The notes under the pieces were generated by a model. The model was not told where the DNA came from and searched no databases. It saw only the letters and a program-made list of their open reading frames with translations. Of a stretch of 59,456 nucleotides of DNA, positions 348 through 52,381 are shown piece by piece. Position 1 is the first letter of the stretch. The number at the start of each line of letters is the position of its first letter. The position numbers were made by a program, and so were the translations under genes. This DNA is from Candidatus Iainarchaeum sp. (GTDB taxonomy: Archaea > Iainarchaeota > Iainarchaeia > JAGGVJ01), in contig JAGGVJ010000026.1 in NCBI GenBank assembly GCA_021158055.1, forward strand, positions 1 through 59,456, in the 5' to 3' direction.

Positions 348-662
348 TTGAAATGGAAACACACAACACTAATTTTCATAGTGGCTAAACTGTTTTTGGC
401 ATTTTTCGTGCCATTTGCAGTACTGATTGCATGGCTTGAAATCACTATCCCCATAGAGACCAACATTGCCTGGTGGATACTGAAAACCATGGGGCTTTCT
501 GCTGCCATAATCTGGTTTGCAGTAAAGGTGAACAGCTTTGACGACCTTGACGGCGTCAAAAAAACAACATTAGTCAAGTTTTGGAACTCGCTTGAACCGC
601 TTTCAAAAAAAGCAATTGTGGTCTCAATCGCAATCTCCTTAATTTTGATCCTTATAATCTAA
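348..662 (+). CDS. Small three-helix membrane protein, function unknown
   Basis: 104 residues. There are three hydrophobic segments, at about residues 8-30 (LIFIVAKLFLAFFVPFAVL), 40-60 and 87-104, with a short soluble loop (NSFDDLDGVKK) between the second and third. I do not recognise the family. The start is TTG at 348, chosen because GGAGAGG lies 5 nt upstream; the nearby ATG at 353 is out of frame. It is the first gene of a run in which the genes are separated by a few bases or overlap (348-2920). It is probably co-transcribed with the uS3-like gene, which may place that product or its partners near the membrane, but this is only inference from position. Confidence 0.7.
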   Translation: MKWKHTTLIFIVAKLFLAFFVPFAVLIAWLEITIPIETNIAWWILKTMGLSAAIIWFAVKVNSFDDLDGVKKTTLVKFWNSLEPLSKKAIVVSIAISLILILII

Positions 663-675
663 AAAGGCAAAGAAC

Positions 676-1083
676 ATGGACAAAGATAAGAAGAAAACAA
701 GCATACTTCCGGAAGTAACACTCATCTGGGAAACAAACGCGGAGCAACGTAGCGTTGATTTAGTATTACTCGAGTTCGAGGAATACACCCTTGAGGCCGT
801 GGAAAAAACCACGGAACCGGACATGCACGCTTACCTCCGGACTGTAAATGCTGTCATAAAAACAATTGACGGCAGTAAAGAGTGGGTAATTTCCCTCAAA
901 AATGTCGCGTATAATGAAAAGCGCAAATGGTGGAAAGTGACTGTCGAGGTCACCCCCTCCAACGAGGAATCATTTCAGTTAATCGGAATAACAACCGGAA
1001 CACTGAAAATAACATTGGAGAATGAAGAACAGATACTGCTAAGCGCGGTTGACGCAGGTATCAGAAAGTTCCAGAGGGCATGA
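676..1083 (+). CDS. Hypothetical soluble protein preceding the uS3-like gene
   Basis: 135 residues, charged and soluble, starting at ATG 676. The alternating hydrophobic pattern (for example VTLIWETN, WWKVTVEV, TGTLKITLEN) suggests a mostly beta protein. There is no membrane segment and no recognisable motif. It starts 13 nt after the membrane protein and its stop overlaps the next start by 4 nt (ATGA at 1080), so translation of the uS3-like protein is probably coupled to it. A role as a partner of that protein is possible but unproven. Confidence 0.65.
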   Translation: MDKDKKKTSILPEVTLIWETNAEQRSVDLVLLEFEEYTLEAVEKTTEPDMHAYLRTVNAVIKTIDGSKEWVISLKNVAYNEKRKWWKVTVEVTPSNEESFQLIGITTGTLKITLENEEQILLSAVDAGIRKFQRA

Positions 1084-1742
1084 AAATGACAGGTCAAAAA
1101 ACAAGCCTTAATTCATGGCACGTCGGAAACAATCTGAAATGGCTGCTGATCCAGGAACATCTTGAAAAAGCATTCAGAAAAGCAGGGTTCGCGGAGCTGG
1201 TAATCAACCGCACGCCCATGGGCACTATAATCACTGTCAAAGCCAATTATCCTGGCATGGCCATAGGGAAAAACGGGAATGTCATCCGAAAAGTCACACA
1301 AGAACTGATAGCAAAGTTTGACTTTGAAAATGAACTCCACTTGGAAGTTGAACCCTTCAACACACTGGAAAGGTCGGCGCGAGTGATGGCAGAACTGGCT
1401 GTGACAAGAATTGAAAGGGGGTATTACGGCCCAAAAACCATTGGACGCATAGCCCATCAGATAATGGACTACGAAAACTATGCAGAAGGATGCAAGATCA
1501 TTCTTTCCGGAAAATGGCGATTCGGAAACAGGGCCAAAACCTTGAAAAAAGTGCGGGGCCGAATCTTTCACAGCGGCAATCCGGCAAAAGAGTTCGTCGA
1601 CAAGTACATAGCTGTCGGCAAAAGAAAGAATGGCACTTTCAGCGTCACGGTGATGATACTTGAGAAATCAGTTAACGGGGGAACAAAAATCCCGCCGTTT
1701 AAGCTAGTGGATGAGCCAGAAGTGGAAAATCCACTGTGGTAA
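1080..1742 (+). CDS. uS3-like ribosomal protein paralog (KH domain plus S3 C-terminal domain)
   Basis: 220 residues. The sequence follows archaeal/eukaryotic uS3 across its length. Residues about 20-95 form a type II KH domain: RTPMGTIITVKANYPGMAIG corresponds to KTPLVTRVVLKVERPGLVIG of the window's own uS3, with the GxxG loop G63-K-N-G66. Next come the V-I-R-K-V-T-Q-E helix and the ERG segment. Residues about 140-210 resemble the S3 C-terminal domain (ILSGKWR..NRAKT, IFHSGNPAKEFVD, FSVTVMILE). This C-terminal part looks closer to textbook archaeal/eukaryotic uS3 (HSGDP) than the host uS3 at 50.9-51.9 kb does. There is no charged tail, unlike the host copy. uS3 lines the mRNA entry channel of the small subunit. 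Whether this copy joins ribosomes or binds another RNA is unknown. It lies among unknown genes, far from the ribosomal cluster. Confidence 0.85.
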   Translation: MKMTGQKTSLNSWHVGNNLKWLLIQEHLEKAFRKAGFAELVINRTPMGTIITVKANYPGMAIGKNGNVIRKVTQELIAKFDFENELHLEVEPFNTLERSARVMAELAVTRIERGYYGPKTIGRIAHQIMDYENYAEGCKIILSGKWRFGNRAKTLKKVRGRIFHSGNPAKEFVDKYIAVGKRKNGTFSVTVMILEKSVNGGTKIPPFKLVDEPEVENPLW

Positions 1743-1766: not shown

Positions 1767-2219
1767 ATGAACATAAAAATAGTGACGAATGGATCGTTTA
1801 TTTCTTTGTTGCTTTCAGCAGGTTTCATGGCTGAAAACAAAGAAAAGATTCCAAGGTTTCCAAAGGTAAATCTTGAGGAAAAAATAGTCTTCATCCAGAT
1901 AGAAAATCTGGTGAAGAAACTCAGGAAGATCAACAGCACCCCCACCACAGAAGTTTTCCTTGTAAACGTTTTTTTCAACAAAAACGGCTTATACGGGAGA
2001 AAAACCCAAAAAGAGACACTAAATAAAATAAACTCAATGCTCTCAAAAAACATCCGGGTAAACCTATTGGTCAAAAACCAAGAGGAAAAAGAAGAGGTCC
2101 TCTCTGGATTATGGCTCAACGACTGGCCATTGGAAACCGGCCTTGAGATAACGACTCAAGACAAGTTAAAAGCAGCAATTTCCCTGAAAAAAAAAACGGA
2201 AAAATGCTTGTTGATATGA
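1767..2219 (+). CDS. Hypothetical protein downstream of the uS3-like gene
   Basis: 150 residues, lysine-rich, starting at ATG 1767 with AAGGAGAA about 11 nt upstream. Residues 3-22 (IKIVTNGSFISLLLSAGFMA) are mildly hydrophobic but do not form a clear signal peptide. The middle and end look alpha/beta (TTEVFLVNVFFNKNG, NIRVNLLVKN). The gene overlaps the next one by 16 nt in another frame, which indicates translational coupling. I do not recognise the family and see no catalytic motif. Confidence 0.6.
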   Translation: MNIKIVTNGSFISLLLSAGFMAENKEKIPRFPKVNLEEKIVFIQIENLVKKLRKINSTPTTEVFLVNVFFNKNGLYGRKTQKETLNKINSMLSKNIRVNLLVKNQEEKEEVLSGLWLNDWPLETGLEITTQDKLKAAISLKKKTEKCLLI

Positions 2220-2920
2220 TCAACTGGCTTGACCAACTGGACTTTGCAGGCAAAGACCTCCAGAGAAACACCACGGCAAACTTAGAGGGAATTGAAGCCA
2301 CCTTGAAAAAACTGGATGAAAGGTCAGAACAGAAACGGACATGTTTCATATTTGACCTGGTTCTGAACAGTTTGATAAGCAGCAACGTCGACGACTACGA
2401 CTTGTCGGACTTTTTAGACAAATTTAGTATGGCTGTGTCAAAAGGAAAGAGGATAAAAGGGAAGTTTCCTTCAGAAACCCTCAAAAACGAATTGGCAAAA
2501 GCCAAAAACAGCCCGGAAGCCGAGGAGAAATTCAAGCAGCTGCTAAACGACGGCCACACATTTGAGGCAATTCTTTCCGCCAGCAACTGGTTGCAGTTTG
2601 AGCGGAAAAAACACAGGGATGCGGGGATAAGAACCGCAATAATGCGCTTTTTCTTCTGCAAATTAAGCGGGGAAACAAGAAAAGCGTACGAGGACATTGT
2701 CTACCTGACTGAAAGGTCAAAGGTATACAAAGAGAAACTAGAGCCTGAATTTTTGGATATAGTCCAAAACAGTGAAAAAATCGGAGAAGTGGCAGTAGCG
2801 GACTTAAGAAATGAGCAATCTCATTTCAACGCCACCAAACTAATTATGGAACTGAAAAAAGACAGGGATATCCAGTCAGTAGTTCTCGTCCTAAGCGAGA
2901 AAACGATGAGTGCCTCTTAA
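2204..2920 (+). CDS. Hypothetical mostly helical protein, reading frame broken near its 3' end
   Basis: 238 residues to the first stop; ATG at 2204 overlaps the preceding gene. The protein is mostly helical and charged, with no membrane segment and no motif I recognise. Coding sequence appears to continue beyond the stop in another frame: from the run AAAA at 2900-2903, the -1 frame is open to TAA at 3058-3060 and encodes about 50 further residues (reading ECLLKIASHNELEG and on to ETLSNM). Re-reading one A would join the two parts (SEKNDECLLK). This could be a sequencing indel, a recent frameshift mutation or a programmed -1 slip. The full-length product would be about 285 residues (2204-3060). 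Confidence 0.6.
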   Translation: MLVDMINWLDQLDFAGKDLQRNTTANLEGIEATLKKLDERSEQKRTCFIFDLVLNSLISSNVDDYDLSDFLDKFSMAVSKGKRIKGKFPSETLKNELAKAKNSPEAEEKFKQLLNDGHTFEAILSASNWLQFERKKHRDAGIRTAIMRFFFCKLSGETRKAYEDIVYLTERSKVYKEKLEPEFLDIVQNSEKIGEVAVADLRNEQSHFNATKLIMELKKDRDIQSVVLVLSEKTMSAS

Positions 2921-3060
2921 AGATTGCCTCGCACAATGAACTGGAAGGAATTGAAGCCGTGAAGGTTCACAACGGACTGATAACGAGCAAAGTCCCAAAG
3001 TGTGATATGAATAACCTCATAGAGACACTTTCGAACATGACCGGCACAAGAGGTGGTTAA

Positions 3061-3556: not shown

Positions 3557-4252
3557 ATGAAGAAAGAAACTGGAAAGAAAAGCGATGCATACACGCTTTC
3601 AAAAACCGTAAACAGCAACAAGGTAACTGACATAACAGGTGAGTTCCGCACCATAAATGCTATGAGAAGCAACAAAGCAAAACTCATCATCAGGCTGCTG
3701 ATGAACGGGAAAATAATGATGGGTTACGGCGCCCCTAAGAATGTCTTAAACGGGGACCAAAACATCATCATCCTTAAGGACTCGGGAATAATCAGCGAGA
3801 ATACAAAGCGAAAGCTAAGGCTGTGGAGGAATCCTCAAAAAACAACGAAAGTTGTGACTGTCAGGACAAACGGCAAACCCATGGATCTTGACATCAGTAA
3901 ATTCCAAAAAACGATTCCAAATATTGGATCAATTGATGGAAATGATAGAAATGCACTCGTTTTGATTTCCAACCCAGGAAACGTGCTGATCCCCAACCCG
4001 GACAACAAGCAAGGAACCGACACCATGCACTCATTTTTGTTGCTTGGAGTAAAACAATCAAAGTCGTCTCCCGACGCCCTGCTGAACCTGCTTGGAAGAA
4101 TAGTGCTTGTAAGGGGACTGCAAACCAACTCACAACTACTTGACATGCTGCATCTTCACAAGAAGAGAATATGCTGGGTTGGAAAAGAAAAAAACGGGGC
4201 AACATGCATCATATACACCCACTTGTCATCGGAATTTAACGGACGTGAATAA
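3557..4252 (+). CDS. Hypothetical protein, paralog of the 6668-7378 gene
   Basis: 231 residues, starting at ATG 3557 with CGGAGA upstream. Three blocks are shared with the 236-residue protein at 6668-7378: LLMNGKIMMGYGAP against LLNKGQILPCGAP; LLGRIVLVRGLQT against LIGRLVVVSDIST; and ICWVGKEKNGATCII against IVWIGKNKAGYIVAY. This shows a divergent gene family duplicated within the region. The protein is soluble and alpha/beta or beta-rich; I know no function. The next gene begins 1 nt after its stop, so the two are likely an operon. Confidence 0.7.
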   Translation: MKKETGKKSDAYTLSKTVNSNKVTDITGEFRTINAMRSNKAKLIIRLLMNGKIMMGYGAPKNVLNGDQNIIILKDSGIISENTKRKLRLWRNPQKTTKVVTVRTNGKPMDLDISKFQKTIPNIGSIDGNDRNALVLISNPGNVLIPNPDNKQGTDTMHSFLLLGVKQSKSSPDALLNLLGRIVLVRGLQTNSQLLDMLHLHKKRICWVGKEKNGATCIIYTHLSSEFNGRE

Positions 4253-4808: not shown

Positions 4809-4843
4809 CTTAACTTGGCCTTTATCGGAACGGAACAATCCAC

Positions 4844-4939
4844 GGCAGTTGGACTGCATGCCAGGCAAGCATAAACACTATTTTTCGGGTTCAAATCCCA
4901 CAACTGCCATCGCTTTGCCAAAGACGATCAGGGTAAAGC
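4844..4939 (+). ncRNA. tRNA-like structured leader, copy 1
   Basis: A perfect 8-bp acceptor-like stem joins GGCAGTTG (4844-4851) and CAACTGCC (4901-4908). Inside are a hairpin (TGCATG..CCAGG..CAAGCA with one mismatch) and a T-arm-like GGG-TTCAAAT-CCC placed directly before the 3' acceptor strand, as in a tRNA. A second hairpin follows: GCTTTGCC (4912-4919) with GGTAAAGC (4932-4939), where a G-U pair replaces the G-C of other copies. AAGGAGAC lies near 4953-4960. There is no anticodon arm of normal size, so this is not an ordinary tRNA gene. Confidence 0.7.
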
Positions 4940-6189: not shown

Positions 6190-6297
6190 CAGTTAAAACC
6201 GCAGCCGGCCAACATGCGCCTATTTTTCGGGTTCGAATCCCGCAACTGCAATCACTTTGCAACCGGCAAAGCAAACCAAAAACAGCAACTTGCTGTT
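6190..6297 (+). ncRNA. tRNA-like structured leader, copy 2 (degenerate)
   Basis: The T-arm CGGG-TTCGAAT-CCCG is intact, but the internal hairpin is shortened by roughly 15 nt compared with other copies and the acceptor-like stem is weak (CAGTT 6190-6194 with AACTG 6244-6248, or GCAG with CTGC). The downstream hairpins are present: CTTTGC/GCAAAG (6255-6271) and AACAGCA/TGCTGTT (6281-6297). A strong AGGAGG and a small gene follow. Confidence 0.55.
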
Positions 6298-6487: not shown

Positions 6488-6519
6488 CTGCTCTGCACAG
6501 GCAAAACATTTCTAAAACC

Positions 6520-6645
6520 GCAGCCGACCAACACACGCCAGGCATGTGCCACTATTTTTCGGGTTCGAATCCCACAGCTGCAATCGCTTTGCTAACACAA
6601 GCACAGCAACCGGCAAAGCAAACCAAAACAGCAAACCATGCTGTT
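6520..6645 (+). ncRNA. tRNA-like structured leader, copy 3
   Basis: The acceptor-like stem is GCAGC (6520-6524) with GCTGC (6577-6581). The fifth pair is C-G here but T-A in copies 1, 5, 6 and 7, which is a compensatory change. The internal hairpin is CACACGC-CAG-GCATGTG with one mismatch. The T-arm motif is GGG-TTCGAAT-CCC. Downstream hairpins are GCTTTGC/GCAAAGC (6586-6619) and AACAGC/GCTGTT (6627-6645). The gene at 6668 follows. Confidence 0.7.
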
Positions 6646-6667
6646 AAAAACCCAGAGGAGTAAAGAA

Positions 6668-7378
6668 TTGAATGACATAACAACAGTTTCCCAATTGCAG
6701 ACTGCAATGGAAACAAATAAAGACATAACACCGCAAATGACTGACAGAACACCAGCGATGGAAGCATTCTGGAACCTGTTAAACAAAGGGCAGATTCTTC
6801 CGTGTGGAGCTCCGACAGAAGAAAAGGGCAACGATCGGTTTGTACTGGTCTTAAGGAATCCCCGGAAACTAACCGAACGAGACTCCAAAAAAACCAAGTC
6901 AAAAATGACTGGAATTTGGAGAGAGCACAACGATCCAAAAAGCACGATAAACGTGCAGATTGCAGGGGAAACCCCGGTTAAACTGCGAATCGGAAAAGAA
7001 CCAGGAATAGTTCCCAACCTAAAAATGGATAAATGGGAAACCAGCCATGAGAACTTGCTTCTCTTATGCAAAAACCCAGACAATCCAAGAAGAACAGCCG
7101 GAACAAATTCTTTTTTGCTAATCGAATTTGGCAAAACAAGAACAAAAAACCTGAAACACCACCACAAAAACTCAACTCTCGCAATGTTAATAGGGAGACT
7201 TGTAGTGGTTTCAGACATTTCAACCCTGCGTGGCGTCAAGGAACTGGCTGACCAGTTCAAAGAAAAGATAGTCTGGATTGGGAAAAACAAGGCTGGTTAC
7301 ATAGTTGCTTACCTGAACATCAGAACCGTAGCGGAACCGATTAAAGCAACAACAAAATCAAAGGAAGACAATGGCTAA
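6668..7378 (+). CDS. Hypothetical protein, paralog of the 3557-4252 gene
   Basis: 236 residues from a TTG at 6668, chosen because CAGAGGAG at 6653-6660 is well placed for it; the upstream ATG at 6638 lies inside the hairpin of leader 3. Blocks shared with the 3557-4252 product (LLNKGQILPCGAP, LIGRLVVVSDIST, IVWIGKNKAGY) make the two divergent paralogs. The protein is soluble with a basic C-terminus. The stop overlaps the next start (7371), so the small basic protein downstream is co-translated. Confidence 0.65.
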   Translation: MNDITTVSQLQTAMETNKDITPQMTDRTPAMEAFWNLLNKGQILPCGAPTEEKGNDRFVLVLRNPRKLTERDSKKTKSKMTGIWREHNDPKSTINVQIAGETPVKLRIGKEPGIVPNLKMDKWETSHENLLLLCKNPDNPRRTAGTNSFLLIEFGKTRTKNLKHHHKNSTLAMLIGRLVVVSDISTLRGVKELADQFKEKIVWIGKNKAGYIVAYLNIRTVAEPIKATTKSKEDNG

Positions 7379-7558: not shown

Positions 7559-7600
7559 TTTTTTTTATTTTTACTAACCAAAACGAACACAATATAGTTC

Positions 7601-7711
7601 TGTAGTCGACCCACATGCACCGGGCGTGTACCTCTTTTTTCGGGTTCGAATCCCGCAGCTGCAATCGCTCTGCAACCGGCAAAGCAAAACAAAACAGCAG
7701 GAACTCGCTGT
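7601..7711 (+). ncRNA. tRNA-like structured leader, copy 4
   Basis: The acceptor-like stem TGTAGT (7601-7606) pairs with GCTGCA using two G-U pairs. The internal hairpin is ACATGC-ACCGG-GCGTGT, where a T-G pair replaces the A-C mismatch of other copies. The T-arm is CGGG-TTCGAAT-CCCG. The next hairpin is GCTCTGC/GCAAAGC with one mismatch, then ACAGC/GCTGT (to 7711). The gene at 7728 follows with GGAGG. Confidence 0.65.
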
Positions 7712-8222: not shown

Positions 8223-8374
8223 AGACAAAAAGAAAGCTGCTCAGAACAAATGAAAAGCCGCTTAACAGACAAATCCAAACAAAAATTGGCTTCTTTTTTA
8301 ACGCCACTACTTTTTTCATCGCTCTCACAACGGCAAAACATGCCAAAATCGCTGAGAGACAACAAGTTTTCCAA

Positions 8375-8469
8375 GCAGTTGAACCGCACGCAACAAAGCA
8401 TGCAACACTATTTTTCGGGTTCAAATCCCGCAACTGCCATCGCTCTGCCAAAAAAGCAACCGGCAAAGC
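8375..8469 (+). ncRNA. tRNA-like structured leader, copy 5
   Basis: GCAGTTG (8375-8381) pairs with CAACTGC (8431-8437). The T-arm is CGGG (8416-8419), loop TTCAAAT, CCCG (8427-8430), stacked directly on the acceptor-like strand exactly as in a tRNA. The internal hairpin is GCACGC/GCATGC. The following hairpin is GCTCTGCC (8442-8449) with GGCAAAGC (8462-8469), one mismatch. The gene at 8501 starts 31 nt later. Confidence 0.7.
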
Positions 8470-11089: not shown

Positions 11090-13252
11090 ATGACTGCAAA
11101 TATCAACGTAAAACTGATGAGAGACGACGAAATCCAAAACGGTGCGTGCCGAATAAGCAAGGCACTGTCAACCGAACTGAGAATAAGTCAGGGTCAGGTA
11201 ATCGAGATAGCCGGAATCAACAGCAAAAGACGTGCTATAGTTGTCATCTCCGAAGTTTCGGAAGCACCCGGTGATGCAGAAACAAAGCAACTCATCTGGG
11301 CAAACAACGAAACAATTCTCAATTCCAATGTGGATTTTGAGGGACGAGCACAGGTGAGCGCGATTCAAAAAGTCCGCGAGGCAAAAGAAATAACCGTGGC
11401 ACCGTTGAACACTTCCATAATACCATCCCTGCTGGATCAAAACAAGTTCAAAAACAGCGTAACAGGGCGCTTCTTCGCAAAGGGGAACATAATATCAAGC
11501 ATGGGAAGCTTCAGCGTTGAGGGCTCAGGCACTGATGGGCATGACAACTTCATCGAATACAAGGTAAAAATAGTGTCAACAAAGCCGGATTCATCGGTTC
11601 AGGTCACTAAAAAAACCAACATAATATTCAAGGAACCCATACGCGGAGAAATTGACTTTGGAGACATCGGAGGATTGAATAGCCAGATAGAAACAATGCA
11701 GGAACTGGTGGAATGGCCGCTTCGCTACCCTGAAATATTCGAGCATTTAGGGCAGGATTCCCCAAAAGGCGTTCTTCTGCACGGTCCGCCCGGAACCGGA
11801 AAAACCCATCTGGTAAGAGCAATAGCAAGATCTGCAGATGCTCACTTCATATACGTGAACCCCGGGGAAATCAGCGCTGATCCCACTCAGGCAAAAACCC
11901 GCATTGACGAGTTGTTCAACGAAGCAAACAATCACCCTGGCCCGGCAATAATCTTTTTGGACGAAATTGACGCAGTTGCGCCAAAGAGAAGCGAGTTAAG
12001 AAACCCAATCTATTCCAGCATAGTGTCGCATCTGCTCACAAAAATAGACGGCATGGAAACCAATTCGCAAATCATGGTGATTGGCGCTACAAACAGCCCA
12101 AACAGCATTGATGAAGCCATGCGCAGGCCTGGGCGACTTGACATTGAAATAGAGATCCCATCCCCGGACAAGGAAGGGAGAATGGAAATCCTCGAAATTC
12201 ATACACGGGGAATGCCGTTTGAGACCTCAAAGCAAAGAATTGACATTCTGGAGCCCATAAGCGAGGCAACTCACGGGTTTGTCGGAGCAGACCTGATGTT
12301 TCTCTGCAAATCTGCAGCACTTGCGTGCATAAGACGGAACTGGCTGGACATCGAACTAGACGAAAACGAACACATCCCGCCAAAGGTTCTGCGGACACTG
12401 CGGGTGAATCTGGGTGATTTCAAAGAAGCTTTGAAAACAACAACACCCTCTGTTGGCCGGGATATCATCGTGGAGAAACCAGATGTCGACCTGAAAAAAG
12501 ACATCGGTGGACTGAACGAAGCCAAAAAAGAGCTTTTGGAGACCGTTGTCAGGGCATGGGCAAACAAAGAGGAAATCGCAAGGCTAAACCCCTCAACCAA
12601 AATCCCAAGGGGAATCGTATTGCACGGACCCCCGGGAACCGGAAAAACATTCCTTGCAAAAGGACTGGCAAAAGAAATGGGTTTTCATTTGATTGTGGTA
12701 AAACCAAGCGACGTCCTGTCAAAATGGCACGGCGAATCCGAAGGTACAATAAGCAAGGTGTTCAGCAAGGCAAAATCACTTGCACCCTGCATCATTGTAT
12801 TCGAAGAGTTTGAATCACTGGTGCCTGTCCGCGGACAAGCGTCGGATTCTGCCGGGGCTGCAAACAACAGATTAGTGAACCAGATACTCACTGAAATGGA
12901 TGGTTTTGACAGCCTTACAGACGTCATTGCCATAGCGACAACAAATCGCATTGACATGATTGACCCTGCAGTACTGCGAAGCGGCAGATTTTCTGTAACG
13001 ATACCTGTATCAGATCCTGACGAAGGCGAAAGAGAAGACATCTTCAGAAAGATCTTCAAGAGCGCCACAATCAAAGACGACATTGATTTCAATGAACTTG
13101 CAATGGCAAGCGATGGCCTGAATGGCTCTGACATAAAGGAAGTCCTTGACAGGGCAGTGTACAAAACCATTACCCTCAAAGGAAAGCACATAAAAAAAGA
13201 AAGTGTGCTGGCAGCGATAGAAGACATAAAGGAAACAAAGAAGGAAAACTAA
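11090..13252 (+). CDS. Cdc48/p97-like double AAA+ ATPase
   Basis: 720 residues, close to the usual archaeal Cdc48/VAT length of about 730. The N-terminal about 180 residues occupy the place of the Cdc48 N domain (substrate/adaptor binding) but are divergent. D1 has Walker A GPPGTGKT starting at residue 232, Walker B IIFLDEID and arginine-finger region RRPGRLD. D2 has Walker A GPPGTGKT from residue 513, a Walker B reading IIVFEEFE (Glu where Asp is usual), and LRSGRFS. Such ATPases unfold or extract proteins using ATP as hexamers. The start is ATG 11090 with TAGGAGGAAGA. It shares an operon with an archaemetzincin-like protein, a membrane protein and an AN1 zinc-finger protein, all types linked to Cdc48 in eukaryotes. 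It is probably a specialised paralog rather than the housekeeping Cdc48. Confidence 0.9.
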
Positions 13253-13323: not shown

Positions 13324-14007
13324 ATGAGATCAACATACACAATAAATTTCTTCAGAAACTCTGAAGAGATTAAACTAAATGAACTGGAGAGGATAGCCAA
13401 AGAGCTTTCAAATACGACAACATTCAATTGCAAAATTGAAATACACAAAAGCCCGCTTGAAAAAGCAAGGGGTTCAGAACTGAATAGCTCATTCTTTGAG
13501 GAAGGCTGCAATCTTGACGATTCTTTTGTCTTTGCGGCATTTGTTGAAGAGAACATGCCCGGTGTTAACACTGACCATATACTGATTGGACAAAGTTCAA
13601 GGGGATGCCTGGTCAGGGTAAAAGAAAACAGTGATGCAACAATGCATAACTTACTTCACCAACTCGGGCACGTGTTTGGAATTGAGGACCACTGCACAAA
13701 AACAAAGTGCGTAATGTACCCCCTCTACATAAAAGGCGCGGTGGACTTCAAAAACCCTTTCTGCAGCGACGGGAATAGCAGTTGTGGAAGCATAATTGAA
13801 GAAGCAGTGTTTCACAAACAGGACCCTGACCACTGGGATAACATTGCCACAGGCAGTTGCGAAAACACAACTTCAGCTCACGAACTGGCCGGAAAACCGC
13901 AAATCAAGCACAGCACTCGGAGAGACACAGACTTCCTGAAGAAAATAAAAACACACGTTGAAAGGCCAACTGAAAGAAGCCTCATACAACTACTGGAGGA
14001 AACATAA
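13324..14007 (+). CDS. Archaemetzincin-like protein with catalytic Glu replaced by Gln
   Basis: 227 residues, starting at ATG 13324 with TTTGGAGGC upstream. Residues about 105-160 match the archaemetzincin zinc signature: HQLGHVFGIEDHC (from H112) followed by a C-x4-C-V-M pattern, then VDFKNPFC and a further Cys, as in the structural zinc site. The general-base Glu of HExxH is Gln113 (codon CAA), and one extra residue lies between the Gly and the third His. The protein may bind zinc but is predicted to be proteolytically weak or inactive. The family consists of metzincin peptidases of poorly known role. The C-terminal 60 residues are polar and basic. The stop overlaps the next start by 1 nt, so it is co-translated with the membrane protein downstream. 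Confidence 0.75.
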   Translation: MRSTYTINFFRNSEEIKLNELERIAKELSNTTTFNCKIEIHKSPLEKARGSELNSSFFEEGCNLDDSFVFAAFVEENMPGVNTDHILIGQSSRGCLVRVKENSDATMHNLLHQLGHVFGIEDHCTKTKCVMYPLYIKGAVDFKNPFCSDGNSSCGSIIEEAVFHKQDPDHWDNIATGSCENTTSAHELAGKPQIKHSTRRDTDFLKKIKTHVERPTERSLIQLLEET

Positions 14008-14999
14008 TGTTCTTATCCACCCACGCATACCCCGGACATGACTACATACTCCTCAGCATGACAGAGAGTCTTGTGCTTATGATTGCTGTGATAATCTTTA
14101 ATGCGGTTGTAGCAAGCCTTGTTGTATCACTGAAAAACAAGTACCTTGAAAACAACTACAGGATAAGTGACCTGTCAGAAGACAAAATTGCGGTTTTATT
14201 CCTTGTACTTGTAAACACAACAATCATGCTTCTGTTCATCAAAGACGGAACACACAACATCATGCACTTCTGGCCAGGTGACTTTATGAATGCTGTCCTG
14301 TTAACTGCCATTGCTGCATTGGGAGCACTGGTAACAGCAAACATATTCCTTGGAACATACAGGTTCACGGAAGCACCCCCGGAAGGCCAACAATCAGTGA
14401 AGGCAACCTTCAATTCAGATGACGGGCGACTTCAGATAAACCCACAAAAACCCAAAGAATGGTCAATGGGTTTGTGCGATGCGCCGATAGTAACCAAAGA
14501 AGCGCTGAGATCCGCAGCCAGAATAGCAATTGTCGGAGCGATTGTCTTTCTGTTGATGCTCGTGCTATCCAGTTTTAAGGTGTCAATAAGCCGGACAGAA
14601 TTATCATGCATATTTGGCATGTACCTGGCAGTAGACATTATTCTGGCAATGAGGCTTCAGGCCATACTTGGCAGAAGAAATATGGACGAGCGCTCATTCC
14701 TTGCAAAGCCCGAAAACATGTTTTATTACAACCAACAAAAACACTTAAAGCAAAGAGCATCCGGGAAGCAAACCTTTGCAACAACTGACAAAGATAAACT
14801 GATATTGCTGATTATGCTATTAATAGGTGGAGGAATTACATCCTTAATCCTATTGATAATAATAATCGGAACGATAACAAGCAGCATCGGTTACTCCATA
14901 GCTAACATGAGCGAAAACGACAACTACATGCCACACTTCCTTATTAGTTTGGTGGTCTTCTACCTGTTGTTTTTTTACGGAGAAGATGTCCTTTCCTAA
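14007..14999 (+). CDS. Seven-helix membrane protein
   Basis: 330 residues, starting at ATG 14007 with TGGAGGA upstream and overlapping the previous stop. I count about seven membrane helices, with cores LVLMIAVIIFNAVVASLVV, VLFLVLVNTTIMLLFI, AVLLTAIAALGALVTANIF, AIVGAIVFLLMLVLSS, GMYLAVDIILAM, LILLIMLLIGGGITSLILL and LISLVVFYLLFFYG. A soluble loop of about 60 residues lies between helices 3 and 4. No transporter or enzyme motif is recognised. In context it could anchor the Cdc48-like machinery at the membrane, which is inference. Confidence 0.75.
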   Translation: MFLSTHAYPGHDYILLSMTESLVLMIAVIIFNAVVASLVVSLKNKYLENNYRISDLSEDKIAVLFLVLVNTTIMLLFIKDGTHNIMHFWPGDFMNAVLLTAIAALGALVTANIFLGTYRFTEAPPEGQQSVKATFNSDDGRLQINPQKPKEWSMGLCDAPIVTKEALRSAARIAIVGAIVFLLMLVLSSFKVSISRTELSCIFGMYLAVDIILAMRLQAILGRRNMDERSFLAKPENMFYYNQQKHLKQRASGKQTFATTDKDKLILLIMLLIGGGITSLILLIIIIGTITSSIGYSIANMSENDNYMPHFLISLVVFYLLFFYGEDVLS

Positions 15000-15051
15000 C
15001 GAGACAAGAAACCAAGAACACACAAAAACAAAGAGAATAGGAGGAATCAAG

Positions 15052-15852
15052 ATGAGTGAACAAGTATACACCTACAACAATCCCTGCGGAGGAATCCCTG
15101 CAGAAAAAATGCTTTTAGCATGCACTGCAATTGCTGAAACCTTTGCAAACGGAACAGAAAGCTTTGAGACAGCCATCAACGAAAACAGGAAAAAGCTTTC
15201 ATGCATCGCAGGAATATCTGTTGAACGGACAGCAGTGCTTAAAGGACTTGTAAAGAACTCGATAAAAGCGCCAGAAAAGGGTGTGAAAAAGGCAGGCAAC
15301 ATCCAAAAGGCGATAATCGAACTGAACCCGAACAAACCCATAAACGCAAAGGCAGGAAAGGGTTCAAGAACAGGAAAAGTTTTCAAACCGCCCGTTACAG
15401 TGGTGGCTGAAATGGAAAAAGACAATCCTGAAAGTGCCAAAGTGCAGATAATAATGCCTTTTTCTGCTGAAGACGATTCGGAATGCGACCAACTGGCAAA
15501 GGACATAATAAAAGACCTTTATGTCATGGCCACTGGAAAGCACATTACTGACAGTCAGATACAATTCATGGAACCAGCCCCCCTCAACCAAAGTGTGTGC
15601 GTGGAATGCGGAGAAAAAACACTCCATATCCACTACTGTCCGCTTTGTGGAAACCGATACTGCTCAAAACACAGGAGCCCGGTAAACCACAGGTGCTGCA
15701 ATTTGTCTGCAGTAACAAAAGAGCACAAAACAGCAAATCCAAAAGGGACAATCACCAAGGCAGAGGGAACAACCGGCATGGAACACGAATCCACAGCAGG
15801 ACACGAGCCCACAGCAATAACTGTAGAACGCAGAACGCAAATGTGCGGGTGA
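15052..15852 (+). CDS. AN1-type zinc-finger protein
   Basis: 266 residues. ATG 15052 was chosen because TAGGAGGAATCAAG sits directly before it; the ORF also extends upstream. Residues 183-215 form a textbook AN1 finger: C183-x2-C186-x9-C196-x2-C199-x4-C204-x2-H207-x5-H213-x-C215. Residues 1-180 are helical to mixed, with a lysine-rich stretch near 75-120. AN1 proteins in eukaryotes (ZFAND family, Cuz1) act with p97/Cdc48 and the proteasome, so an AN1 gene in a Cdc48-like operon is meaningful. The C-terminal 50 residues are polar and probably disordered. A duplicated terminator follows at 15888. Confidence 0.85.
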   Translation: MSEQVYTYNNPCGGIPAEKMLLACTAIAETFANGTESFETAINENRKKLSCIAGISVERTAVLKGLVKNSIKAPEKGVKKAGNIQKAIIELNPNKPINAKAGKGSRTGKVFKPPVTVVAEMEKDNPESAKVQIIMPFSAEDDSECDQLAKDIIKDLYVMATGKHITDSQIQFMEPAPLNQSVCVECGEKTLHIHYCPLCGNRYCSKHRSPVNHRCCNLSAVTKEHKTANPKGTITKAEGTTGMEHESTAGHEPTAITVERRTQMCG

Positions 15853-15927: not shown

Positions 15928-16008
15928 ATTACCCATGTAACGGCAAAGAAGGCAGAATAATACACATCCCCCTTCACCGTATTGCACAAGCAAAACCCAA
16001 TTGCATCA

Positions 16009-16123
16009 GCAGTTGAACCGCACGCAACCGGCGCATGCCCCTATTTTAGGGTTCAAATCCCGCAACTGCCATCGCTTTGCAAACCGGCAAAGCAAACAAC
16101 GCAAACAGCAAAAATTCGCTGTT
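16009..16123 (+). ncRNA. tRNA-like structured leader, copy 6
   Basis: GCAGTTG (16009-16015) pairs with CAACTGC (16063-16069). The internal hairpin is GCACGC/GCATGC. The T-arm motif is GGG-TTCAAAT-CCC. Following hairpins are GCTTTGC (16074-16080) with GCAAAGC (16087-16093), and AACAGC (16104-16109) with GCTGTT (16118-16123). The sequence is nearly identical to copy 7 from GCATCAGCAG onward. Confidence 0.7.
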
Positions 16124-16886: not shown

Positions 16887-16916
16887 CAACCGAAAAAGAC
16901 AAAGCCACTCGCATCA

Positions 16917-17006
16917 GCAGTTGAACCGCACGCAACGGAGCATGCACCTATTTTAGGGTTCGAATCCCGCAACTGCAATCGCTTTGCCAACAGCAACCGG
17001 CAAAGC
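16917..17006 (+). ncRNA. tRNA-like structured leader, copy 7
   Basis: GCAGTTG (16917-16923) pairs with CAACTGC (16970-16976). The T-arm motif is GGG-TTCGAAT-CCC. The internal hairpin is GCACGC/GCATGC. The following hairpin is perfect: GCTTTGCC (16981-16988) with GGCAAAGC (16999-17006). The gene at 17031 follows with CGGAGAC. Confidence 0.7.
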
Positions 17007-19534: not shown

Positions 19535-22153
19535 ATGCTCGGAATCAACTTTCACGAAGACATCGTCACTTTCCCAATATGGAGTTCCGGGGAAAAAACA
19601 ATCCGACTGCTTAGCCGCGGCATCAAATACTTCAAAATAAAAAGCATTGCAAACGAGCACAGCGACCTGATTCAAAGCGTAAGCAAATTCAAAAACGCGT
19701 CTTTTGGAATAATTGTCAACAAAACAGAAAAAAAATTTGATTCCTACTTGTTTACTGCGGGAAACGTAACAAACAATAATCAAATGCCTGAAAAAATAAA
19801 GACAAACCTTCACATTTACGAGCAGACATTCATTTCAACACTCAAGGGATTTGACCTTGAACCGGTAAAAGACACGGAAATCAAAGACGTTTTTTTCGCA
19901 CCGCTTGGCGGAACACCCTCGTCAATCGATATAAAAAAAGAAGTCATTGTTGAATCAGGCACAGACAAATTCAAAATAATGGCAGGAAAACTTGAATTCA
20001 CAGAAACATTCCAGGAAACCGAACACATTTTAATGGAAGAAAAACTAAACGATTTTTTTGACAACATAGTTCCACTTGACATAAACTTTTCTTACATCGG
20101 AAGCGTAAGCCCGTGCGAAGACGGGTTCAAGTTCACAGCCTACCTAATCGTCAGGAAAAAAATAGACTCAACAGACGACAACTCAATAGTCTCTGACAAG
20201 CTTTCCCTTGTGAAAATGCTCAAAAACTCCTTCGGCTCAGAAAACGTAACATTCAAACTCAACACAAAAAAGTACCTTGAAGAAGCACTTTACACCCTGA
20301 CAAACACCGACACGGTTATCTCAAAAGACCACGCAAAAAACCTGCTGATTCTCCCCGGCTTCATCAAAGAACGCGGATCCGACCACTTCAAATCAATCGG
20401 GGAAAAAGAAACGCAAGGAGACATTCCTATCGGGCACATCCTTTCAAACGGCAAAAGAGTGCATGAATTCGGACTCAACCCCTCTGAATTACTGCGCCAC
20501 ACCTACATTTGCGGAAGCAGCGGTTCAGGAAAGACAATCGCCTGCAAGCACATTGTAATGAACGCAATAAACGCCGGATACAAAGTACTGCTGCTGGACT
20601 TAAGCAAAAGAAGCTACCGTGACTTAATCAACATGGGTTACGATTTCAAGACATTCACGCCCGGAAGAAGCGTCGCGCCTTTTCAGACAAATTTTTTGAG
20701 CCCGCCGACAGGAGTGGAACCCGCAGAATGGGCAAAAGCATGGGCAGACGTCTTCACCGAGTCATGGGGAATCGGTGAAGGAGGCCACTCAATAGTATTG
20801 AACCTGATAAAAGACCTCTACGAATCAAGAGGAATATTTAACGGAAGCACAGATTACCCAAACATACTTGACTTCAAAAAAGCAATTGAAGCATATGAAA
20901 AAATACTCGAGGGCCGTGAATCAGAATGGACAAAATCAGTCAAAAGAGCAGTGAACGTGTTAACATTCAAGTCAAGCAGTGAAATGTACAGCCACGAAGG
21001 CTACCCGCTTGAAAAACTGCTTAATCAAAACACGCTGATGGAGCTTGACTCGCTTGGAGAATACGAAAAAAGATACTTTGTAAACAACCTGTTGTTCTGG
21101 ATATACAAATACCTCCTCAACAAAGAAAAAACAGATAAACTGCGCCTGCTTGTGGTCATAGAAGAAGCGCACAACATCTTCAACCAGAAAAACTTAATGG
21201 ACAAAGAATCCATTCTCGACCAGCTTTTCAGGCAGATCCGCGAACTCGGGGTAGGGTTTATCACAATTGACCAGTCGCCTGCAAAATTCAGCAAAGTGGT
21301 CCTGGAAAACACATATACCAAAATAGCGCTCACCCTCTCTTACCGCGACAACATTGACGTGGTTGCAAAATCCATGGGGTTCTCAAGAGAACAAACCGAC
21401 CTTTTAAACAAACTGGACATAAGCGAAGCAATCGTAAACCTTTCAGGGCGCATAATCAACCCGTTCCTCATAAGCATCGACAACATTGAATCACACACCA
21501 TAAACGACGAATTTATCGCAAGAAAATTCAAATTCGACGGGCTTGACAAATACTTACAACTCGACAAGGCAAACGAAAAAATGGAAAAAATTCCCAGCAC
21601 TGAAGCAAAAATCCACTCAAGCCTGAAAGACATCTTGTTTGACCCCCACCACCTCGCAATAGTCAAGAAAAAAATATCAAAAATGACCCCTGAAATGAAC
21701 AATGTTTTCACGGCAGTCGGAAACGGAGAAGTGCTAACTGAAAAAGACAACATGAAAACAGGCATTTCAAAAGACGACTTTTCAGCCGCCTTGACACAAC
21801 TCATAAACCTTGGATTTGTAAGATTCAAAAAAACAAATGCAAACAACTTCATTTACTTCCTTGCACCCGAAGGCGAAGCAGCTTACGGCGTGCTGTTTGG
21901 CATGAAACTCTACGAAGAGGAAATTCTAGTGCAGGCAGAAGGAGAAATGAAACAAAAAATAGACCTATCACGCCTAAATCATACACTGAAAGAACTTGCA
22001 TTAAATAAAAAAGAAATCTGGATATTTGCAGACGACGCAAACCTGTCAAACCGGGCAATCCAGGAAGCGGCAAAATTCAACTTCAACGAAAACATAGAAC
22101 TGGAAATAAACATACAATGCAATGACGTGCACAGGAATTTCCTGTTCAAATAA
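19535..22153 (+). CDS. HerA/VirB4-like (DUF87-type) AAA+ ATPase
   Basis: 872 residues from ATG 19535. Walker A CGSSGSGKT (Gly at residue 327) is followed by the HerA-type segment KVLLLDLSKRSYRDL. Walker B is LLVVIEEAHNIF (Glu543), typical of HerA/TraC/VirB4 relatives. Next comes the sensor segment GVGFITIDQSPAKFSKVVLENT. The N-terminal 300 residues are divergent and probably a barrel or docking domain. Residues about 690-760 look like a winged helix (SKDDFSAALTQLINLGFVRF). Such ATPases pump DNA (HerA in end resection, TraC/VirB4 in conjugation and packaging). With a membrane-anchored partner just upstream, DNA translocation at the membrane is plausible. Flanking direct repeats suggest the unit may be a module. 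Confidence 0.85.
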   Translation: MLGINFHEDIVTFPIWSSGEKTIRLLSRGIKYFKIKSIANEHSDLIQSVSKFKNASFGIIVNKTEKKFDSYLFTAGNVTNNNQMPEKIKTNLHIYEQTFISTLKGFDLEPVKDTEIKDVFFAPLGGTPSSIDIKKEVIVESGTDKFKIMAGKLEFTETFQETEHILMEEKLNDFFDNIVPLDINFSYIGSVSPCEDGFKFTAYLIVRKKIDSTDDNSIVSDKLSLVKMLKNSFGSENVTFKLNTKKYLEEALYTLTNTDTVISKDHAKNLLILPGFIKERGSDHFKSIGEKETQGDIPIGHILSNGKRVHEFGLNPSELLRHTYICGSSGSGKTIACKHIVMNAINAGYKVLLLDLSKRSYRDLINMGYDFKTFTPGRSVAPFQTNFLSPPTGVEPAEWAKAWADVFTESWGIGEGGHSIVLNLIKDLYESRGIFNGSTDYPNILDFKKAIEAYEKILEGRESEWTKSVKRAVNVLTFKSSSEMYSHEGYPLEKLLNQNTLMELDSLGEYEKRYFVNNLLFWIYKYLLNKEKTDKLRLLVVIEEAHNIFNQKNLMDKESILDQLFRQIRELGVGFITIDQSPAKFSKVVLENTYTKIALTLSYRDNIDVVAKSMGFSREQTDLLNKLDISEAIVNLSGRIINPFLISIDNIESHTINDEFIARKFKFDGLDKYLQLDKANEKMEKIPSTEAKIHSSLKDILFDPHHLAIVKKKISKMTPEMNNVFTAVGNGEVLTEKDNMKTGISKDDFSAALTQLINLGFVRFKKTNANNFIYFLAPEGEAAYGVLFGMKLYEEEILVQAEGEMKQKIDLSRLNHTLKELALNKKEIWIFADDANLSNRAIQEAAKFNFNENIELEINIQCNDVHRNFLFK

Positions 22154-50371: not shown

Positions 50372-50854
50372 TCACTTTTTTGCTTTTGGTTTTTCAGTTG
50401 AACTTACTGGTTTCTTGTCAGCAACCTTTGCTTTGACCGCTGTCTTTGCAACGTTTTTTGTTTTCTCGGCAGGAACTGCTGTTGCTTTTGTTGTTTTTTT
50501 CGTTGCTGTTTTTTTTGAAACTTTTTCTGTTTTTGCTTCAGCTTCCTTAGTTCTTGTTTTTGCCTTGACGGTTGTCTTTTTGGCCTCTTTTTTAACTTCT
50601 CTGACTGCGGCCCCTTTTTTGGTCGCTTTTTCTTCTTTGACTGCTGTTTTTGGCTCTTCCCTGGTTATTGTGAGTATCCTTGCAATTGTCCTGCGGATTA
50701 TCCTGAGTCTTCCTGGGTTTTCCGGGCGTGTTCCGCTTGATACATGAGCGCGTTCCCTGCTGAGCTCACTTCGAAGATCCTTCAGCTTGGACCCGAGTTC
50801 TTTTTGGTTCATTGCCCTTATTTCAGATGATTTAAGAATCGCCACTGTATTCAC
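50372..50854 (-). CDS. rpmC: Ribosomal protein uL29 with basic C-terminal tail
   Basis: 160 residues; a normal uL29 is about 65-70. The core (LKSSEIRAMNQKELGSKLKD, LRSELSRERAHVSSGTRPEN, PGRLRIIRRTIARILTITRE) ends near residue 68. The remaining 90 residues are Lys/Ala/Thr-rich and histone H1-like (KKTTVKAKTRTKEAEAKTEK). The start is GTG 50854 overlapping the uS3 stop; GTG 50845 (VAILKSS) is the conserved start and may be used. Confidence 0.93.
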   Translation of the reverse strand: MNTVAILKSSEIRAMNQKELGSKLKDLRSELSRERAHVSSGTRPENPGRLRIIRRTIARILTITREEPKTAVKEEKATKKGAAVREVKKEAKKTTVKAKTRTKEAEAKTEKVSKKTATKKTTKATAVPAEKTKNVAKTAVKAKVADKKPVSSTEKPKAKK

Positions 50855-51930
50855 TTCCCCTCAGTTTTATTTGCAGTCTTTTTTGAAGGTTTTTTTTCTT
50901 CTGTTGGTGACTCTTTTTTTGCAGCTTTTGTCTCTGCTTTCGTTTTCGCTGCTGCCGGCTTTTTTGAAGCACTCTTGGCTTTGGATTCTTTTCCTTTTGA
51001 ATCTTCAGCTTTTTTATCTTTTTTTACTGTTTTAGTCTCTTTTGATTTTACTTTCGTTTCTACTACTGCCGGTTTTTCCGCTTCGGCGATTTTTGCTTCA
51101 GCAACTTTTTCAACTGCCTTATCTTTTTCAGCTTCCTGCTCTGCTGCTTTGTCAGCTTCCGGTTTTACTGCTTCTTCTGATTCTACAACCGCTGTAACTC
51201 CTTCTTCTGCAACAGCTTTTTCTCCTTCACCAGTTTCGGCTGCCAGAGGCTTTTTCTTGAACATTTTTTCTGCTTGTTCAACCGACTTTACTTCGTCTTC
51301 AACAATGCTGTCAATGTTTATTATCTTGTTTGCCTTGATGATTTCTTTGAGATTTATCTTATCTGAAAATACCACGTCAGGAGGTACAATTTTTACCGTG
51401 ACTCCGATGGCGCCTGCTTTCGGAAGGGCTGTCGAGGTAGCAATTTTCACTAGCTTCGCGGTATCGCCTGCTTTTTTCATGTAACCCGCACCGACACGTT
51501 CCACTCTTGACTTGCCTCCTTTCCCGACAATTTTTCCCGAAACAACAACTTCCGTTCCAAGAGCTCCCGCCTGAATGATCGACTTGACAGTGCGGTTCAA
51601 AACCCTGCGCCATTTCATGCCCCTTTCAAGCTGGCCTGCAATCACGTTTGCCATTATCTGCGGGTCAAGTTCTTTTTTGCCAAGTTCGGCAATTTCAACT
51701 TGCGGGTTTTCAATCCCTCTTTTCTCGATTTCTTCAGTGAGCTGTTGTATGCTTGCTCCTTTTCGTCCTATAACAAGCCCGGGTCTTTCAACCTTGAGCA
51801 CCACTCTTGTTACAAGAGGCGTTTTTTTTATTTCAACTCCTGAAAAGTTCGCTGACTCAAGTTTTCTTGTGAGCCATTTTGTCAGTTCAACCTGCTTAAT
51901 TGAGTTGTCAATAAATTTTCTTTCAATCAA
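50851..51930 (-). CDS. rpsC: Ribosomal protein uS3 (host copy) with acidic/lysine-rich C-terminal tail
   Basis: 359 residues. I chose TTG 51930, with AGGTGA 5 nt upstream; GTG 51939 overlaps uL22. KH domain: KTPLVTRVVLKVERPGLVIG and RKGASIQQLTEEIEKRG (GxxG G-R-K-G). C-terminal domain: EVVVSGKIVGKGGKSRVERV, AGYMKKAGDTAKLVKIATST and GAIGVTVKIV. Beyond residue about 210 lies a roughly 150-residue charged tail (Lys/Glu/Ala). Lines the mRNA entry site. A second, tail-less uS3-like gene is at 1080-1742. Confidence 0.96.
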   Translation of the reverse strand: MIERKFIDNSIKQVELTKWLTRKLESANFSGVEIKKTPLVTRVVLKVERPGLVIGRKGASIQQLTEEIEKRGIENPQVEIAELGKKELDPQIMANVIAGQLERGMKWRRVLNRTVKSIIQAGALGTEVVVSGKIVGKGGKSRVERVGAGYMKKAGDTAKLVKIATSTALPKAGAIGVTVKIVPPDVVFSDKINLKEIIKANKIINIDSIVEDEVKSVEQAEKMFKKKPLAAETGEGEKAVAEEGVTAVVESEEAVKPEADKAAEQEAEKDKAVEKVAEAKIAEAEKPAVVETKVKSKETKTVKKDKKAEDSKGKESKAKSASKKPAAAKTKAETKAAKKESPTEEKKPSKKTANKTEGK

Positions 51931-51931
51931 G

Positions 51932-52381
51932 TTATTCACCTACCACCAATTCAACGTTGGTGTACTGTCTTATCTGGCCGCGCCATTTTCCTTTCGGCTG
52001 CCTTCTGAACCGCGAGTCACCCTGTGATGAAATTGCGCTGATTATCTTCAGTGATTCAACGTCAAGTCCCTTGTAGTCCGCATTTGCTTCCGCGTGGGAG
52101 ATTATCTCCTTTATCTTTTTTGACGCCTTAAACGGATACCTTCCGTGTTTCCAGCCCTTGCCTTTCCTGTGGCCGGTTTCAAGGAAAAATCTCCTGAACG
52201 GGACATGGATCTTTTTTTCCATGACATCGTCAAGAAACTTTTTTGCACCCTCAAGTTTCATTCCCTGAATTTCCCTGCATATCTCAACGCAGTGTTTCCG
52301 TGAGAGGTCAAGGTTTCTTCCAAGAGCTTTTGCAGTGTGCTCAGGGTCAATTCCTTCAAATGTGTAATTTGTCTTAACCAT
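51932..52381 (-). CDS. rplV: Ribosomal protein uL22
   Basis: 149 residues, ATG 52381. Typical blocks are HTAKALGRNLDLSRKHCVEI, CREIQGMKLEGAKKFLDDVM, KKIHVPFRRFFLETGHRKGK and SQGDSRFRRQPKGKWRGQIR. Lines the peptide exit tunnel. It stops just before the uS3 start. Confidence 0.97.
   Translation of the reverse strand: MVKTNYTFEGIDPEHTAKALGRNLDLSRKHCVEICREIQGMKLEGAKKFLDDVMEKKIHVPFRRFFLETGHRKGKGWKHGRYPFKASKKIKEIISHAEANADYKGLDVESLKIISAISSQGDSRFRRQPKGKWRGQIRQYTNVELVVGE

Follow-up and report, generated by a model that had tools for sequence, protein, structure and literature searches.

In archaea, few genes are duplicated or horizontally gained as seldom as those for ribosomal proteins, and uS3 grips the mRNA at the entry channel. 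The presence of an extra uS3 gene, here named uS3b, in a 59,456-nt stretch of contig C23 (the window) raises the question of what this gene encodes, where it came from and whether its product could act on the ribosome. The initial annotation had described a second, divergent and full-length uS3 outside the ribosomal protein cluster, a description with which Pfam, NCBIfam and phmmer agreed.

Identity of uS3b and of the resident uS3

1080 to 1742, plus strand: uS3b gene, 220 aa, ATG start, open reading frame without internal stop
1149 to 1352, plus strand: KH type-2 domain of uS3b, residues 24–91 (Pfam PF07650, KH_2, E 2.9e-13)
1410 to 1658, plus strand: C-terminal domain of uS3b with HSGNP, residues 111–193 (PF00189, Ribosomal_S3_C, E 3.3e-9)
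50851 to 51939, minus strand: resident (host) uS3, 362 aa, with a long charged tail, within the ribosomal protein cluster (S10-type)

Both domain matches of uS3b were above the respective curated Pfam cut-offs. The GxxG loop of its KH domain (G-K-N-G, residues 63–66) was intact and, like the HSGNP motif, was present as first described. The match to the NCBIfam archaeal uS3 family NF003219 reached 152.3 bits (cut-off 147) and covered residues 15–198, while the match to TIGR01008 (uS3_euk_arch) reached 131.1 bits, below the cut-off of 150.25, which is a curated strictness threshold for archaeal/eukaryotic equivalogs and not a structural feature. Since this cut-off was missed, we refer to uS3b as a uS3 homologue and do not claim that it is a functional equivalog of uS3. 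The resident uS3 scored 190.8 bits with NF003219 and 185.2 bits with TIGR01008. A phmmer search of the PDB yielded 100 distinct sequences matching uS3b at E ≤ 1e-3, and all 60 of the 60 matches listed were uS3; the best was 9o17_AC of the Methanosarcina acetivorans 70S ribosome (E 2.9e-29), a similarity to uS3 far above chance. The protein has a net charge of +13 and a pI of 9.8, and carries no additional domain.

The structure prediction that the initial annotation had named as a check returned a uS3 fold. The AF2 model, made with a 33-sequence alignment (pLDDT 82.4, pTM 0.68), had as its top PDB matches exclusively uS3 in archaeal/eukaryotic ribosomes (Foldseek E 3.6e-19), and compared with 6tmf_C it gave a VIA Z of 22.5 and an rmsd of 2.1 Å across 193 residues. 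Because the alignment was made of true uS3 sequences, the model leans towards the uS3 fold and indicates compatibility rather than independent proof. Judged by its sequence, uS3b is a complete, intact, strongly divergent uS3 homologue with both diagnostic domains. An assignment as an unrelated KH protein was ruled out by the Ribosomal_S3_C domain and the full-length uS3 match.

The resident uS3 had initially been placed at 50851–51930; its end was corrected to 51939 and its strand to minus, as a plus-strand reading at the earlier coordinates contained stops throughout. It occupies the gene position between uL22 and uL29 in the S10/spc-type cluster, with uL29, uL22, uS19, uL2, uL4, uL3, SUI1 and the RNase P p29 subunit as neighbours, whereas uS3b lies outside this position amid genes of no assigned family. 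The two proteins share 25–27% identity, and the long charged tail is indeed absent from uS3b (220 vs. 362 aa).

Transcriptional context of uS3b

348 to 662, plus strand: short hydrophobic membrane-type frame, TTG start, 104 aa; probable first gene of the uS3b transcription unit
676 to 1083, plus strand: 135-aa protein, no family matched
1767 to 2219, plus strand: 150-aa protein, no family matched, beginning 24 nt past uS3b
2204 to 2920, plus strand: 238-aa protein, no family matched, overlapping the 150-aa frame by 16 nt

The stop of the 135-aa frame overlaps the start of uS3b by 4 nt (ATGA, 1080–1083), an arrangement from which translational coupling of the two genes is likely. A single-sequence model of the 135-aa protein was poor (pLDDT 45) and uninformative on its fold. 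Given the 4-nt overlap, the 24-nt gap and the 16-nt overlap, uS3b is very probably co-expressed with these proteins of no assigned family. Although the 238-aa frame ends at 2920, coding-like signal on the plus strand goes on in another frame to approximately 3059 (2204–3059 overall). This change of frame within 2920–3059 reflects an indel from sequencing, a break or a programmed frameshift.

Occurrence of a second uS3 copy

The host is a small-genome archaeon for which sequence features hint at a DPANN-type class. With 1.15 Mb in 45 contigs and a completeness of 94.9%, its genome contains exactly two uS3 genes, uS3b and the resident one. The search with uS3b covered 290 distinct genomes. Besides its own, 86 belonged to the same class and the remainder to four further archaeal phyla, together with single outliers; no second uS3 match was found in any of the 289 other archaeal genomes. 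The sensitivity of the search was adequate, since it recovered the 27%-identical resident uS3 at E 1.8e-13. Pattern scans with uS3b alone gave zero relatives in IMG/VR or GTDB contigs. With a looser, mixed alignment, 80 GTDB loci were recovered, each at most 43% identical to uS3b and of Methanosarcinales, Halobacteria or other Euryarchaeota type, while the same scan of IMG/VR returned no contig encoding a uS3b relative. Two apparent parallels were rejected: the "plasmid" uS3 of Natronorubrum bangense is located in a complete ribosomal protein operon, and "phage" uS3 matches in Acinetobacter are bacterial ribosomal protein operons deposited under a phage name.

Loss of conserved sites and possible role of uS3b

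1428 to 1436, plus strand: codons of G117-P118-K119 of uS3b, aligned with the mRNA-entry motif F/Y/W-R-R/K/S

Near-invariant sites were defined as the 39 columns at least 85% conserved among the other 81 uS3 sequences. uS3b kept 27 and lost 12 of them, the most losses among the 82 rows (median 2). Position 118, which we take to correspond to R116 of yeast uS3, is a proline in uS3b, where 81 of 81 other archaeal sequences have R or K; position 117 is a glycine where the others have an aromatic residue, and K119 is kept. In yeast, uS3 R116/R117 project into the mRNA entry tunnel, aid mRNA binding in initiation and affect no-go decay (PMC6283612). The match of P118 to the entry arginine was obtained in most pairwise alignments with three of four scoring schemes, and was weaker with cheap gaps. 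R123, about one helical turn past K119, might partly substitute for the lost arginine. In addition, G188, a glycine invariant in 81/81 other sequences, is replaced by Ser, and the C-terminal domain lysine K163 by Phe.

Our preferred reading, held tentatively and at somewhat short of an even chance, is that uS3b is a foreign, island-borne variant of uS3 which becomes part of some 30S subunits and there alters the entry of mRNA. The gene would probably have been acquired from a Halobacteriota-type archaeon, making it xenologous, and would then have evolved very fast in a lineage-specific island with purifying selection retained. Made together with its operon partners, uS3b would replace the resident uS3 in a fraction of the small subunits, where the missing entry-channel arginine would change the grip on the mRNA; the outcome could be that the island's own mRNAs are favoured or that host translation is dampened. 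The ribosome-entry step is proposed by analogy with ribosomal proteins of mobile elements known to do so (bS21, bL12), both of which, when virus-encoded, enter E. coli 70S ribosomes according to the main text of a survey of viral ribosomal proteins (PMC6375957). A point against it is that uS3 is a core protein, unlike the loosely held ribosomal proteins that this text describes as usual in viruses (PMC6375957). The initial annotation had suggested that uS3b retunes mRNA use; the replacement of the conserved entry-channel arginine by proline adds weight to this, while ribosome incorporation and function remain proposals.

The loss of the 12 near-invariant sites, including G188, could equally be compatible with uS3b acting outside the ribosome. 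The main alternative, which we regard as doubtful and yet well worth weighing, is that an acquired uS3 has left the ribosome and was reused, on its own, to bind RNA as a KH protein or to regulate island transcripts. Such reuse would suit a branch 15–20 times the median of uS3, more lost sites than in any other of the 82 sequences, the disappearance of both the entry-channel arginine and the invariant G188 next to an intact KH GxxG loop, and a neighbourhood of unassigned instead of ribosomal protein genes. It is harder to square with the retention of the entire uS3 C-terminal domain besides the KH domain, of 27 near-invariant sites and of the full predicted fold, and with the lack of an adjacent leader or obvious RNA target, the first tRNA-like leader being approximately 3.1 kb downstream.

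Origin of uS3b

In the initial annotation, the C-terminal domain of uS3b appeared closer to general archaeal/eukaryotic uS3 than that of the resident copy. That uS3b is nearer to other archaeal uS3 held true and could be refined: by tblastn, Halobacteriota were the nearest group, with a mean of 114 bits and a maximum of 126 over 81 sequences, and the host's own class the farthest (mean 76 bits). Mean identity was 35% to Halobacteriota vs. 28% to the own class. Halobacteriota uS3 (Methanotrichaceae, Methanosarcinaceae, Halobacteria) have the same two domains and the highest identity to uS3b, 37–43% over the best segments, and share with it the motifs RG-(W/Y)-Y..K, GC(E/K)IILSGK and HSG. They differ in having the FR(R/K) entry motif, where uS3b has GPK, and an acidic C-terminal tail; uS3b, moreover, lies outside the ribosomal protein cluster, is far more divergent and is found in a different archaeal class.

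In the phylogeny likewise named as a check, an ML tree of 82 rows, uS3b was placed with Halobacteriota (Methanosarcinales/Halobacteria; support 98/98), where it stayed after the other long rows had been removed (100/99), while the resident uS3 clustered with its own class. The terminal branch of uS3b, however, measured 3.9–5.0 substitutions per site (median ~0.27, a 15- to 20-fold excess), and uS3b and its own class on one side of a branch were not rejected by an AU test (p 0.133, 0.142). In view of this extreme branch length and the AU result, a Halobacteriota origin of uS3b is no more than probable. Indels and diagnostic columns, which are less sensitive to branch length, favour a horizontal gain. 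A one-residue deletion at residue ~170, present in 18/18 own-class proteins and 0/63 others, is absent from uS3b. Near residue 148, two residues are inserted in 18/18 own-class proteins and one in uS3b. Where an alignment column distinguishes Halobacteriota from the own class, uS3b agreed with Halobacteriota 13 times and with the own class four times. Taken together, the data suggest, as the favoured origin, a horizontal gain from a Halobacteriota-type archaeon followed by fast divergence.

It is unlikely that uS3b is instead a lineage-specific duplicate of the host uS3, with a ribosomal or an extra-ribosomal function, whose fast evolution mimics kinship with Halobacteriota. The non-rejection by the AU test and the unreliable placement of long branches would leave room for such a duplicate, but it would have to lack the own-class deletion and one of the two inserted residues, and the diagnostic columns (13 vs. 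4), the mean identities and the best PDB match, from Methanosarcina acetivorans, all point towards Halobacteriota.

Evidence for selection on uS3b

That the open reading frame is intact and 27 near-invariant sites have been retained despite such divergence points to selection rather than decay, and these features, along with the kept GxxG loop and basic charge, argue that uS3b is a gene under selection. That it is a decaying, functionless relic of horizontal transfer appears very unlikely: the number of lost conserved sites and the apparent frame break in the neighbouring gene (around 2917–3059) would be in keeping with decay, but neutral drift at this divergence would have broken the reading frame, and the start–stop overlap with the upstream gene has also been kept.

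Comparison with ribosomal proteins on accessory DNA

Ribosomal protein genes on accessory DNA have been reported before. Borg elements of Methanoperedens carry rpL11, S2 and S3ae (PMC9605863), and in the portion of that report dealing with them they resemble the present case in having a single archaeal-type ribosomal protein gene on accessory DNA amid many hypothetical genes. The same portion describes Borg ribosomal proteins as branching beside those of their own host, which uS3b does not, and names L11, S2 and S3ae, not uS3 (PMC9605863). Borg-type elements are large and linear and have terminal repeats, tandem repeats and Methanoperedens-like genes. The DNA with uS3b is joined to a host chromosomal contig, adjoins host genes, is cut by contig ends and belongs to a different archaeal class.

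Virus-encoded ribosomal proteins named in the main text of the survey cited above comprise bS21, bL12, bL9, bL31, bL33, bS6, uS9 and uS15; "uS3" is absent from that text (PMC6375957). They are element-borne homologues like uS3b, and some have been shown in host ribosomes, but as described there they are mostly loosely bound, exchangeable and bacterial (PMC6375957), and the region of uS3b is without a seen virus hallmark. Second ribosomal protein genes are rare in archaea: a 2012 census of archaeal ribosomal protein paralogues counted 26, 12 of them S10 in Halobacteria and some on plasmids (PMC3353972). Its cases are alike in being second ribosomal protein genes in one archaeal genome; its main text gives no uS3 example, and the cases it names are from Halobacteria (PMC3353972). 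Searches of the literature on element-borne ribosomal proteins in the archaeal group of the host yielded nothing relevant.

While ribosomal proteins on accessory DNA are thus already known, a uS3 with such an origin, such a host and an altered entry site appears to be new, and uS3b may be a rare instance in which a genomic island provides a core component of the ribosome. A foreign, entry-site-altered uS3 beside the resident one offers a concrete test case for heterogeneous ribosomes in archaea or their elements, and for whether accessory DNA can swap a core, not a peripheral, ribosomal protein.

tRNA-like leaders and the surrounding island

~4843 to 4910, 6190 to 6250, 6513 to 6582, 7600 to 7663, 8374 to 8440, 16008 to 16072 and 16915 to 16979, plus strand: seven tRNA-like 5' leaders in the window
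End of contig C20, around 30135, 31769 and 33665: three further tRNA-like leaders, adjoining host genes

The leaders consist of an acceptor-type helix (GCAGTT..AACTGC), a short hairpin, a T arm that is intact (GGGTTCRAATCCC) and a GCTTTGC..GCAAAGC hairpin followed by the start codon, a layout that would be suited to cleavage by RNase Z or RNase P setting the mRNA 5' ends. Among 93 genomes searched they are confined to the present one. A link between uS3b and the leaders, which the initial annotation had found attractive, was not borne out by their positions: uS3b starts inside an operon, the first leader lies at ~4843, about 3.1 kb downstream, and the leaders precede other genes. No leader was found before uS3b, and positions 1000–1085 folded no better than shuffles (z +0.85). 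A functional link in trans is possible, although the sequence gives no sign of one. We consider it highly improbable that a mobile or recently gained island combines its own foreign uS3, in which the mRNA-entry tip has been rebuilt, with processable tRNA-like leaders on many island genes into a private translation route, in which modified ribosomes would prefer island mRNAs.

In the region of the island from 1 to ~18.5 kb of the window, all genes are on the plus strand. The genes and leaders of this region, together with the leaders beside host genes at the end of contig C20, suggest a single island that the assembly has split and that host genes flank at its two outer ends. Codon usage differed between the island and flanking host genes by a KL of 0.055–0.105, compared to 0.006–0.012 for host splits and 0.04 between two host contigs; that of uS3b fitted the island within sampling noise. 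Most improbable of all is an assembly or binning artefact in which the left part of the contig comes from another organism: the position of uS3b 1.1 kb from the contig end and the departing codon usage would agree with it, but 37 kb of host genes, among them the ribosomal protein cluster, lie on the same contig as the island, host genes and an island of this type are also contiguous on contig C20 (leaders at 30.1, 31.8 and 33.7 kb), G+C is uniform along the window, and there is no near match in any known organism.

No capsid, portal or integrase families were detected among the proteins scanned (PHROGs, Pfam), and a weak match to a terminase-type ATPase was better explained as HerA/CedD-like; "virus" is thus unproven, and the data allow the term lineage-specific island. 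A defence-system reading of the uS3b neighbourhood was also dropped, as it had generic AAA and HerA matches only.

Several other plus-strand genes were recorded. An 872-aa HerA/VirB4-like ATPase with weak CedD similarity (19535–22153) had no match at E ≤ 1e-20 in the 86 class relatives and could be a DNA translocation motor of the island. A CDC48-like double AAA ATPase (11090–13252; 572 bits with TIGR01243) differs from the CDC48 that the host itself has on contig C28 (1085 bits) and gives the island a second core archaeal gene in divergent, additional copy. For an archaemetzincin-like zinc protease (13324–14007) the profile match was weak and partial (E 1.8e-5), and a protein with an AN1-type zinc finger (14986–15852) matched below the Pfam cut-off (E 2.1e-5). 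Finally, the products of 3557–4252 and 6638–7378 resembled paralogues by eye, sharing the patterns LVLISNPGN/LLLCKNPDN, HSFLLLG/NSFLLIE and LLGRIVLV/LIGRLVVV in this order.
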